In this document: piece by piece, positions 17,270 through 29,588 of the stretch
How the letters are laid out: each line of letters opens with the position of its first letter
Numbering within the stretch: position 1 is the first letter of the stretch
NCBI RefSeq assembly: GCF_015552075.1
Contig: NZ_JADNDZ010000009.1
Coordinates: forward strand, 1 to 37,946
DNA length: 37,946 bases
Direction: 5' to 3'
Origin: Collinsella aerofaciens
Lineage (GTDB): Bacteria; Actinomycetota; Coriobacteriia; Coriobacteriales; Coriobacteriaceae
Notes under the pieces: generated by a model
What the model saw: the letters and a program-made list of their open reading frames with translations, nothing else
The model's database searches: none
Told to the model about the DNA's origin: nothing
Made by a program: the position numbers and the translations under genes

Positions 17270-18109
17270 ATGGCGATCTATGTGACATCTGACGCTCACG
17301 GGCACGTGCGTGCGCTTGACGAGGCCCTGTCTAAGATCTCGTTGACGTCCGACGACACACTGTACGTGCTGGGCGACATGATCGATCGCGGGCCCGATCC
17401 GGTCGGTGTTATTAAGCTCGTGCGCTCGCTGCCCAACGCCCGCGTGCTCAAGGGCAATCACGAGCAGATCATGCTCGATGCCATCATTGGCCAGGATCCG
17501 CTCGATGCCGAGACCTGGGATATCAACGGTGGCTGGACGACGCGCGAGCAGCTCAACGACATGGAATTTGAGGCATACGAGGAGCTCGTGCGATGGATGG
17601 CCGCGCTGCCGCTCTACGCGGTGGTCGAGACCGAGGAACGCCCGTATCTGCTGGTACATGCTGGAATCGAGATGAAGGCGGCGCGCGCGTTTTTGCTTGA
17701 GCATGGCGTCGATTGTGCCGATGGCGTCGGAGCGGTGGGTGCCGATCGCGAACTGCTGCAGCAGATGCTCGCGGTGCAGTCGTCCGATGACCTGCTGTGG
17801 ATTCGTCACGGCTATTGGGATGCGCCGACGGGACTGCTTTCTGCCGAGGGCGAGGGGCCGGTCGTGGTGAGCGGCCACACGCCAACGGTGTCGCTCGGGC
17901 GTTATTGCGAGGTAGGTGGCCTTGCGGGACTCGATGAGGAGTCGGGCCGCGGGCAGATTGTGCGTCTGGGTGGCGAGGATACCGCCGGCGTGCCCGATCG
18001 CATCGATATCGACTGCGCCGCCGCCACCGGCTCCGAGTTCGGCCGCGTCGGGATCCTGCGTCTGGACGACGGGGCTGAATTCTATGCAAACATCAACCCA
18101 GGGGAGTAA
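17270..18109 (+). CDS. calcineurin-like metallophosphoesterase
   Basis: This 279-residue protein has the five metal-site blocks of the PPP/ApaH-like phosphoesterases: SDAHGH (7-12), GDMIDRGPD, KGNHE, LVHAG and SGHTP. Such enzymes use two metal ions to hydrolyse phosphoprotein or dinucleoside polyphosphate bonds. Spacing and length fit bacterial PrpA-type Ser/Thr phosphatases about as well as ApaH-like proteins. The ATG follows CAAGGAGAGG. It is a single gene with a repeat-rich 315-base gap after it. The substrate is not determined. Confidence 0.92.
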   Translation: MAIYVTSDAHGHVRALDEALSKISLTSDDTLYVLGDMIDRGPDPVGVIKLVRSLPNARVLKGNHEQIMLDAIIGQDPLDAETWDINGGWTTREQLNDMEFEAYEELVRWMAALPLYAVVETEERPYLLVHAGIEMKAARAFLLEHGVDCADGVGAVGADRELLQQMLAVQSSDDLLWIRHGYWDAPTGLLSAEGEGPVVVSGHTPTVSLGRYCEVGGLAGLDEESGRGQIVRLGGEDTAGVPDRIDIDCAAATGSEFGRVGILRLDDGAEFYANINPGE

Positions 18110-18132
18110 TTGGTGCAAAGGGTAGCTCATTC

Positions 18133-18160
18133 GGGACGGGCTTTTTGACTACTTTTGCCC
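18133..18160 (+). repeat. R5 repeat, copy 1
   Basis: GGGACGGGCTTTTTGAC followed by TACTTTTGCCC. It resembles the minus-strand sequence at 29427-29453. The flanking AAGGGTAG and CTACTTTTGCCCTT can partly pair. It lies 11 bases before an R2 copy, as happens again near 29.4 kb. Confidence 0.55.
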
Positions 18161-18170
18161 TTCTTCCCAT

Positions 18171-18209
18171 CAAATGATTTTTCTGGGACGGGGATTAAAT
18201 AATCATTTG
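18171..18209 (+). repeat. R2 hairpin repeat, copy 1
   Basis: CAAATGATT and AATCATTTG form perfect nine-base arms around TTTCTGGGACGGGG and ATTAAAT. The second copy (29375-29409) has the same centre but different arm ends that still pair. Confidence 0.85.
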
Positions 18210-18221
18210 GCTGCCCGCTGG

Positions 18222-18344
18222 CTAAGTGAGTAGACTTTTTTGGAAATGCCGAGCACCCAACATATTTGCCTCAATAAAACCGCAGGTCACAGACTTGCGC
18301 TTCGTCGGTGTGGTCGTTGATTCGGTAAAAGTCTACTCACTTAG
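18222..18344. repeat. 123-base element with perfect 18-base terminal inverted repeats
   Basis: CTAAGTGAGTAGACTTTT (18222-18239) is exactly complementary to the sequence at 18327-18344, 87 bases away. The interior has no reading frame of note. It contains GCCGAGCACCCAACATATTT, whose complement loosely recalls the repeats around the AbiEi-like gene. The form is that of a small non-autonomous element or a long structured RNA. From 18345 to 18424 I see only a small CCACC/GGTGG stem before the flippase stop. Confidence 0.7.
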
Positions 18345-18424
18345 TTTTGCGTGATGCATATTGTCCGCAACGAGACCCCAGCGGGGTGATTCCACCGCGA
18401 ATTCCGGTGGCCGGGGGCAGCTAA

Positions 18425-20005
18425 TTACGCTCCGTAGGGGTTGCGGTCGCGTTCGATGCGTTGGCGGATGTGGGCGTACTCGATAATCAGCAGCACCAGC
18501 AGTAGCGACATGATCGCCAGGTAGCTCACGACGGCGCCCGTCAGGCCCAGCAGGTTGATAAGGATTACCGGCAGCACCACGCTCACGGCGAAGCAGACCA
18601 GATAGATCTTGGTGACGTCGCCGGCGTGACGCAGCACCGTGATAATGGCGTAGATAAAATCGATGGCCGCGGTTACGCCGCCGGCGACGACCATCAGCAG
18701 CGCTAATGTGCGGTAGCGCTCAAAGTTGAGGCCGTACATAAAGCTCATGAGGGGAATGCCGGGGCCTGCCATAAATGCGGCGCACACGCCGGTGATGGCC
18801 ACGATCAGCGCCATAACAGCAATAATAATCAAGTCAAAACGGCGGCGTTTTCGCGGGTTCGCCCAAATGCTCGACAGACGCAAAAGCTGCGGTTTATAGA
18901 CAAATCCGATGCTCAGCAAAATAGCCTGCGCCGGAAAGAACAGGGCATTAAAGTACAGCTGGTATTTGTAGGCCAGCGTGCCTTCCATCACAAACTTGGG
19001 CATGCTCTCGATGAGGTTGAACAGGAACAGTGCACCAAAGAGCGGAGCGCACTGGACAAACAGGTGGCCGACCTCGCGCAGGCTCACGCGGCGCGATTTT
19101 TCGGTCTCGAGCAGGGCGAGCGGCGCGGTGACCAGCACGAGCGAGGCGATGGCGGTGACACCCATGGCCATGGCCGCGATGGGCATGCTGCGCGTAAGGA
19201 ACAGCGCCACGCTAAAGACCGCGATGACGCCGACGGAGCGTAGCGTTTGGCTCATGCCGGCCAGGTAGAGTTTATCGGCCTGCTGCAGGCGGCCCTCGTA
19301 CACGTCCGCCACGCCGTCGATCACCTTATACAGGTAGACGCCCAGGCCGATCGTCGCCATCTGCGCGTCATAGCCGCGGGCGCTGCTGTACATGAGGCCG
19401 CAGCCCAGGGCGAGCGCTCCGCAAAGCCAGCGGTTGAGCTGGTAGGAGGCGAAGGAGGTTTTTTCGTCGATGTCCGAGACCTGAAAGTTGCGCACGCCGT
19501 AGTTGCACGCGATCATGATGAGCGTGCCGGTGACAAAGGCGATGGAGAACTTACCGGCTTCCTCGGCGCCCACAAGCTGCGTGGACACAATGGTGAGCAG
19601 CGGAAACGCCATGCCCCACACGGCGGTGCCCAGGGTATTCCAGAGATAGTCGCGGCGGGTGGCGTGCTCCTCGTATTCGGCTTCCTGCGTGGAGAAGCCG
19701 CCGCCGTAGACAGCGCCGAGCAGGCGGTTCCACCACGCGTTGACCATGCGGTGGATGGGACCAGGCTCGCGATCGCGCTCGCGGCGACGGCGCGTGGCCT
19801 GGCTGCTGTCGGGGCCGCCGGCGTTGCGCTGGCTCAGCTCCTGGATGCGCGCGAGCTCTTCGGCCGTGTGGGAGGCGGGGAACAGGCCATTCTCGATGCG
19901 TCCGCCCTGGGCCTTTGCGGTGCCGCTGCCCGCTACGGCGGGGTCGGCGACGCCATTGCGGCGGGCGATGGCGCGGCGGATGCTATCGAGGGGCGTGATA
20001 CTCAA
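18425..20005 (-). CDS. Wzx-like polysaccharide flippase / O-antigen translocase family protein
   Basis: This 526-residue protein has a long soluble N-terminus (about 110 residues, basic, with RRRRERDRE) and then about 12-14 membrane helices. The pattern of paired helices with short loops and YGVRNFQVSDI matches the polysaccharide-biosynthesis (Wzx/MATE-like) flippases that move lipid-linked sugars outward. No glycosyltransferase gene is adjacent. The start is TTG (20003-20005) with GAAAGGA before it; no ATG occurs until residue 87. A TATACT box lies 28 bases upstream. The family call is good and the substrate unknown. Confidence 0.8.
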   Translation of the reverse strand: MSITPLDSIRRAIARRNGVADPAVAGSGTAKAQGGRIENGLFPASHTAEELARIQELSQRNAGGPDSSQATRRRRERDREPGPIHRMVNAWWNRLLGAVYGGGFSTQEAEYEEHATRRDYLWNTLGTAVWGMAFPLLTIVSTQLVGAEEAGKFSIAFVTGTLIMIACNYGVRNFQVSDIDEKTSFASYQLNRWLCGALALGCGLMYSSARGYDAQMATIGLGVYLYKVIDGVADVYEGRLQQADKLYLAGMSQTLRSVGVIAVFSVALFLTRSMPIAAMAMGVTAIASLVLVTAPLALLETEKSRRVSLREVGHLFVQCAPLFGALFLFNLIESMPKFVMEGTLAYKYQLYFNALFFPAQAILLSIGFVYKPQLLRLSSIWANPRKRRRFDLIIIAVMALIVAITGVCAAFMAGPGIPLMSFMYGLNFERYRTLALLMVVAGGVTAAIDFIYAIITVLRHAGDVTKIYLVCFAVSVVLPVILINLLGLTGAVVSYLAIMSLLLVLLIIEYAHIRQRIERDRNPYGA

Positions 20006-29515: not shown

Positions 29516-29588
29516 GGGGACGTAGCTCAGTTGGGAGAGCGCTGCCGTCGCATGGCAGAGGCCGAGGGTTCGACTCCCTTCGTCTCCA
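29516..29588 (+). tRNA. tRNA-Ala (anticodon CGC)
   Basis: All 73 bases fold as a cloverleaf. The acceptor GGGGACG/CGTCTCC contains the G3-T70 pair that marks alanine tRNAs. The D arm is GCTC/GAGC, the anticodon stem CTGCC/GGCAG has loop GTCGCAT (CGC reads codon GCG), and the T arm is GAGGG TTCGACT CCCTT. The discriminator is A; the following CCCA shows that CCA is not encoded exactly. It has its own promoter and a terminator at 29603-29634. Confidence 0.97.

Follow-up and report, generated by a model that had tools for sequence, protein, structure and literature searches.

The window (the whole analysed stretch of 37,946 nucleotides from a Collinsella aerofaciens contig) contains a 123-bp non-coding element that is flanked by the stop codons of two converging open reading frames and whose two arms are exact reverse complements over 18 bases (Table 1). 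At gaps of up to 150 bp the window has no longer exact inverted repeat, the maximum in 60 window-sized first-order Markov sequences being 14, in agreement with the first-pass annotation, which had judged these ends unlikely to have arisen by chance. The 16-mer core of the arms, searched with up to 2 mismatches, occurs within the window only at the two ends of the element (shuffled expectation 0.00). No promoter-like or terminator-like sites were found in 17900-18650. A separate 39-bp hairpin repeat with a CTGGGACGGGGATTAAA core adjoins the element, and its second copy lies upstream of a tRNA at 29516.

Table 1. Positions of the element, its parts and its neighbours in the window.
Feature	Position	Strand	Remarks
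Whole element, 123 bp, locus cl5	18222..18344	+	orientation reading AAAACCGCAGGTCA
Left arm, putative site of a lineage-specific protein	18222..18239	+	family consensus (C)YAAGTGAGTAGRCTTTT; pi 0.020
Right arm, same site inverted	18327..18344	-	pi 0.024
Central 14-mer AAAACCGCAGGTCA, on the dyad	18276..18289	+	order-wide; longer form in actinophages; IS110-family target point in relatives
Inner, weaker inverted pair, left half (GCCGAGCAC)	18248..18256	+	alignment columns 27-35
Inner inverted pair, right half	18310..18316	-	alignment columns 89-95
Small hairpin repeat of the left spacer, outside the element	18171..18209	.	second window copy from ~29373
Metallophosphoesterase family gene, convergent neighbour	17270..18109	+	stop 112 bp left of the element
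Lipopolysaccharide biosynthesis (flippase-like) gene, convergent neighbour	18425..20005	-	end 80 bp right of the element

The genome to which the window belongs (G000, 2.32 Mb) harbors five intact 123-bp copies and a sixth that an insertion sequence divides between two contig ends, and these six elements account for all 12 arm-like ends found genome-wide with at most one mismatch. The exact 16-mer end is present in 22 of 43 Collinsella genomes and a DNA match at E ≤ 0.01 in 24 of them, and a search for complete elements in named genomes yielded 53 stretches, every one of them in Collinsella. No match to the element was found in phage records or, with a strict pattern, in viral contigs. Among plasmid records, a full-length match was found in one entry, from C. 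aerofaciens. NZ_OY725717.1, which is labelled plasmid 6 of C. aerofaciens TSDC17.2-1.1 and measures 900 kb, has the core genes pckA and pflB and probably represents a chromosomal fragment.

The copies in the fetched regions, when grouped on their flanking DNA, yielded nine orthologous loci comprising 95 complete copies from 18 genomes of the C. aerofaciens group. Their length is exactly 123 bp in 88 cases (122 in two, 124 in five), and the likeness between copies of different loci ranges from 59 to 96% in the consensus matrix. None of the 95 copies has a target-site duplication at its flanks. Two genomes (G002 and G003) are without the element at the window locus, where their entire spacer is unrelated, so that this locus provides no clean empty site. 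Thus, the multi-copy, dispersed element that the first-pass annotation had suspected is real, and its suggestion of a miniature transposon is not supported, as far as a recent one is concerned, given the orthologous loci, the constant length and the lack of both target duplications and a clean empty site. The outcome that it had set against a mobile element, a fixed single-copy site conserved across species, is nearly what was found, except that the element occupies several loci.

Two of these copies, of loci cl3 and cl0 in G017 (L179 5061-5183 and 6480-6602), provide the stop codons of genes reading into them, namely a GntR/aminotransferase regulator and a gene with a weak MTES_1575 nuclease match, and their arm contains stops in all three frames. 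A function for these three-frame stops was considered and dropped, the arm in G131 and G096 being without one of them. In G169, two elements of the same orientation stand around a small cassette with a hicB-like gene (L246 1940-2850).

Sequence constraint was assessed as pi (mean pairwise difference per site) in an alignment of the 17 genomes that carry the element at the window locus. Pi amounts to 0.063 in the element versus 0.150 in the left spacer and 0.142 in the right one; inside the element it is 0.016 in the central 14-mer, close to the values of the arms (Table 1), and 0.078 and 0.106 in the two parts of the interior. With 0.026, 0.021 and 0.194 at codon positions 1, 2 and 3 of a neighbouring gene, the arms and the centre are about as invariant as codon positions 1-2, and the spacers are far more variable. 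Over the 123 element columns of all 17 genomes there is not one gap cell and not one inserted column. In the left spacer, 74 inserted alignment columns were counted, and the earlier impression that this intergenic gap collects insertions is therefore correct for that spacer and incorrect for the element itself. Judging from this alignment, purifying selection is acting on the arms and the centre, and the length is fixed; the whole looks like an old, fixed and selected DNA element rather than a jumping one.

A gap-free alignment of 74 distinct copies was used to compare the arms as DNA sites and as strands of an RNA stem. At position 2 the left arm and the reverse-complemented right arm both allow T or C, and at position 13 both allow A or G. 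The pair 13:111 is A-T in 50 copies, A.C in 19 and G.T in 5, with no copy changed on both sides, and compensatory changes in the main stem formed by the arms are absent among the 74 copies. Such one-sided, uncompensated changes point to two inverted copies of one protein site rather than to a stem kept by pairing. Of the 19 pairs that an RNAalifold consensus retains, 13 belong to the arms, and the window's own fold, when laid on the alignment, gives 77.2% paired cells. The inner pair 35:89 covaries (15 compensatory cells), and an inner change between CCAACA/TGTTGG and CCGGCA/TGCCGG is readable in the alignment of the window locus. For both strands, folding is better than that of shuffled sequences (z of -5.45 and -6.50).

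A hairpin RNA, or a site at convergent 3' ends that terminates transcription in both directions or serves processing, would be in keeping with this strong folding of both strands, with the inner covariation and with the convergent genes at the window locus. On the other hand, it is opposed by the uncompensated changes in the arms, by a consensus structure that is nearly confined to them, and by the lack of terminator-like sites around the element. Covariance models of Rfam identified no family at the element; Collinsella-1 RNA (RF01700) gave no match and was ruled out as a candidate. We regard this explanation as unlikely, and a hairpin transcript, as proposed at first sight, is disfavored even though the window copy, taken singly, folds better than shuffled versions of it; with respect to the alignment, any role as RNA or cruciform appears weakened.

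The middle of the element, AAAACCGCAGGT(C/A)A, is also found midway in hairpins with quite different arms in G000 and G037, the geometry of which is nearly the same as in the element. The pattern AAAACCGCAGGTNA occurs in 130 out of 197 Coriobacteriales genomes, representing 60 of 89 genera, compared with 2 matches for the reversed control. From the matches listed, 80 regions were hand-picked for variety. Inverted arms scoring at least 12 accompany 37 of the 98 distinct order-wide sites (2/294 with swapped sides and 3/239 at random local positions), and about half of the order-wide centre sites are without arms. The arm sequence depends on the lineage, as illustrated by AGATGGTTC in G203, TTGTGCACGATTTT in G045, GAGGGTATGTACAC in G169, CTAAGTGAGCGGGCA in G131 and GGTTTGGGTTCG in G081. 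Arm families differ even within one genome, and in several genomes the arms form arrays on both sides of the centre. By this distribution, the centre is older than the arms. Many of the armless sites (L294, L295, L306, L307, L336, L337, L346) read AAAACCGCAGGTAA and may constitute a separate class. A resemblance of the centre to helix 45 was rejected, as the actinobacterial 16S rRNA 3' end presumably differs from it.

The arms are positioned with respect to the centre. This comparison is confined to the 53 sites whose exact arms reach at least 10. In 23 of them the arm midpoint is no more than 1.5 bp away from the middle of the 14-mer, in 9 it falls near +5.25 and in 4 near -5.25; with swapped sides, the figures are 73/761 within 1.5 bp and 48/761 near +5.25. 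When each arm family is counted once per genome, 15 of 27 families have their dyad no more than 1 bp away from +0.75, versus 10/219 in the local null (13 of 25 if each of the sister-genome pairs G131/G096 and G137/G156, which share arms, is counted once). A Rayleigh test at 5.25 bp gives p ~2.5e-6, with most of the signal carried by offsets near zero, and in one setting of the phasing test the best period is 5.0 instead of 5.25. A midpoint shift of ~5 bp is what one arm moving by a whole helical turn would produce.

Most of the 98 sites are intergenic; their gene context is tandem in 43, convergent in 30, divergent in 12 and within a gene in 5, with 8 at the edge of a stretch; background intergenic gaps include 82 tandem, 45 convergent and 36 divergent ones. 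This spread of contexts counts against the terminator interpretation discussed above. Binding of a regulator at promoters was also rejected, the contexts of the sites being without promoter bias. No strongly enriched family was found among the neighbour proteins of the Coriobacteriales sites (138 scanned, largest count 5).

Beyond the order, the motif AAAACCGCAGGTCAGAG is present in at least 120 stretches of viral contigs, as opposed to 3 when the string is reversed. In annotated phage records, a 33-base query that includes the motif matched 423, nearly all of them actinophages and 3 of them Bacteroides phages; a second query retrieved 601 records, whose names point to actinobacterial hosts in all but one unspecified case. 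In 60 rows spread down the ranking of the latter query, the site lies within 1 kb of a genome end in 51, a count made by eye over phages that are mutually related and hence not independent. In Inventum, an example of the terminal kind, it stands 37 bp from the first gene, annotated as terminase small subunit. All 9 internal sites were opened, and an integrase gene lies at 90-306 bp in 7 of them (SnapTap, Patt, Renaud18, Yeet412, HaveUMetTed, EvilGenius and BangNhom), the sites away from an integrase being those of ObLaDi and BillNye. In bacterial genomes of the phylum, AAACCGCAGGTCAGAG was detected in 22 of 246 (control 0), and ~5 of 25 such sites, read by eye, come directly after a tRNA 3' end. 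The viral and phylum sites are without the inverted arms, arms of at least 11 being found at 3/71 viral sites and 1/25 phylum sites, the latter one a Collinsella.

In the viral contigs L365, L375, L398 and L428 the motif stands, on the opposite strand, just upstream of a sigma-70-like TTGACA...TATGCT as seen by eye. The border of a homing endonuclease was tried as an explanation of the viral sites and rejected; HNH is the commonest family beside them, yet it contributes only 7 of 115 neighbours. Literature searches by string and by topic, which mostly covered papers outside subscription, found no description of the motif, and the only phage match in the accessible text was a primer beside phiJoe attP (PMC5311408).

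These positions, next to phage integrase genes and, in genomes, behind tRNA 3' ends, suggest a further interpretation, in which the element is a recombination site (attP or attC type) of a chromosomal recombinase. Same-orientation pairs around genes, such as those at loci cl0/cl3 and the one enclosing the hicB-like gene of G169, would also suit it. However, orthologous loci are stable and the arm families vary between lineages and within one genome, which makes this interpretation quite improbable.

Insertion sequences have also entered copies of the element. One IS110-family element, assigned by a weak Transposase_20 match below the Pfam cut-off, interrupts the centre at an identical point in three genomes, at locus cl2 in G017 and G000 and at the window's own locus in G004. 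An IS of the IS256/Mutator family lies inside the cl3 copy of G023 (G023:C1:1347604-1349236), away from the centre. According to the accessible part of PMC1525189, insertion sequences of the IS110 and IS256 families are known to target the REP sequences of other bacteria. The check for a partner transposon revealed no long relative, all 12 ends of G000 belonging to elements and the IS insertions lying inside copies.

The targeting by IS110, together with the species-specific inverted ends, the size of 100-130 bp, the intergenic position and the vertical persistence, could be accommodated by a REPIN, that is, by two inverted species-specific REPs spread by a RAYT (Y1) transposase. This possibility is nevertheless very doubtful, since Y1 genes are absent from 4 of the 8 genomes searched (G203, G045, G146 and G187), all of which have centre sites, and since neither arms nor centre were found near any of 14 Y1 loci. 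In addition, REPINs are not known to have a conserved centre. Least probable of all is a MITE, in this case a non-autonomous transposon whose 18-bp terminal inverted repeats would be acted on by a transposase supplied in trans: it would explain an intergenic element at several loci per genome with near-identical terminal inverted repeats common to its dispersed copies, but not the orthology of the loci between species, the constant length or the missing target duplications and clean empty site, nor a centre that is better conserved across the order than the ends, which is the reverse of a MITE, and no transposase with these ends was seen in the surroundings of Y1 transposase genes.

Overall, the orthologous positions, the selection, the fixed length, the centring on the dyad, the phase-like displacement of the arms and the insertion of IS110 in the centre lead us to favor, at slightly under an even chance, a composite double-stranded DNA protein-binding site resembling REP/IHF composites or P1 parS. 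In such a composite site, the arms would represent two inverted lineage-specific sites standing symmetrically about a central 14-bp site. A phylum-wide architectural protein would bind and bend the centre, thus bringing together the lineage-specific proteins bound, in phase with it, to the arms. The role of the element would probably be in chromosome folding or insulation at gene ends, and phages may exploit this host site in the vicinity of att and cos.

A candidate for the protein at the centre is the mIHF family (actinobacterial IHF), which was detected in all 8 Coriobacteriales genomes tested and, of 14 control genomes, in Corynebacterium only. The accessible text of PMC3724605 reports that mIHF stimulates the integration of mycobacteriophage L5 and that, alone, it shows no sequence preference at attP; likewise, the mIHF ChIP sites are reported to have no motif in the accessible sections of PMC6155035. 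As mIHF is reported to be non-specific, the binder may be another protein, or mIHF together with a partner. A second actino_IHF-like gene is located ~2.3 kb from a centre-motif site in G037 (G037:C1:2056722 and 2059368), and G000 has a second, weaker actino_IHF match at C98:14531.

A broader and more tentative proposal, which we hold to be possible with considerable reservation, is that Actinobacteria have an IHF-like system with a true specific site, AAAACCGCAGGTCAGAG, that phages adopted this site for integration and at their genome ends, and that Coriobacteriales built it into helically phased, dyad-symmetric elements, the outer sites of which evolve with a lineage-specific partner. If this is the case, the conserved 14-17-mer would be the missing specific site of an IHF that has been called non-specific, its binder could be found by a simple pull-down, and the phylum would gain its own version of REP/IHF elements.

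Several known systems share parts of this organization. MITEs and REPINs are likewise short, non-coding and present in several copies with inverted ends; the element differs from them by its conserved interior centre and by having no target duplication, empty sites or linked Y1 transposase. Phage lambda uses IHF near att and cos, between phage-specific sites. The central motif is similarly found close to the ends of phage genomes and next to integrase genes, whereas, unlike the Coriobacteriales elements, the actinophage sites are without inverted arms. In P1 parS, inverted boxes for one protein surround a central site of the bending host factor IHF, as described in the accessible part of PMC5016525. 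The element would have the same inverted sites flanking the central site of a (here putative) bending host factor, but at several chromosomal loci, and the likeness concerns the layout of sites only, with ParB and partition being no part of the comparison. Composites of the RIB type are REP/BIME elements that include an IHF site. The E. coli REP/BIME with an IHF site (RIB/RIP type) shares with the element the length of ~100-130 bp, the inverted species-specific repeats, the intergenic position and the targeting by the IS110 family; in contrast, the element has few copies at fixed loci and one conserved 14-17-mer centre with a putative binder, and the 14 Y1 loci inspected showed no link between it and a RAYT. 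REPs are reported to bind IHF, those of E. coli being IHF sites (accessible part of PMC1525189). As far as its sequence indicates, the element appears to have the geometry of such a RIB-like REP/IHF composite, in which inverted lineage-specific repeats are arranged about a putative host-factor site.
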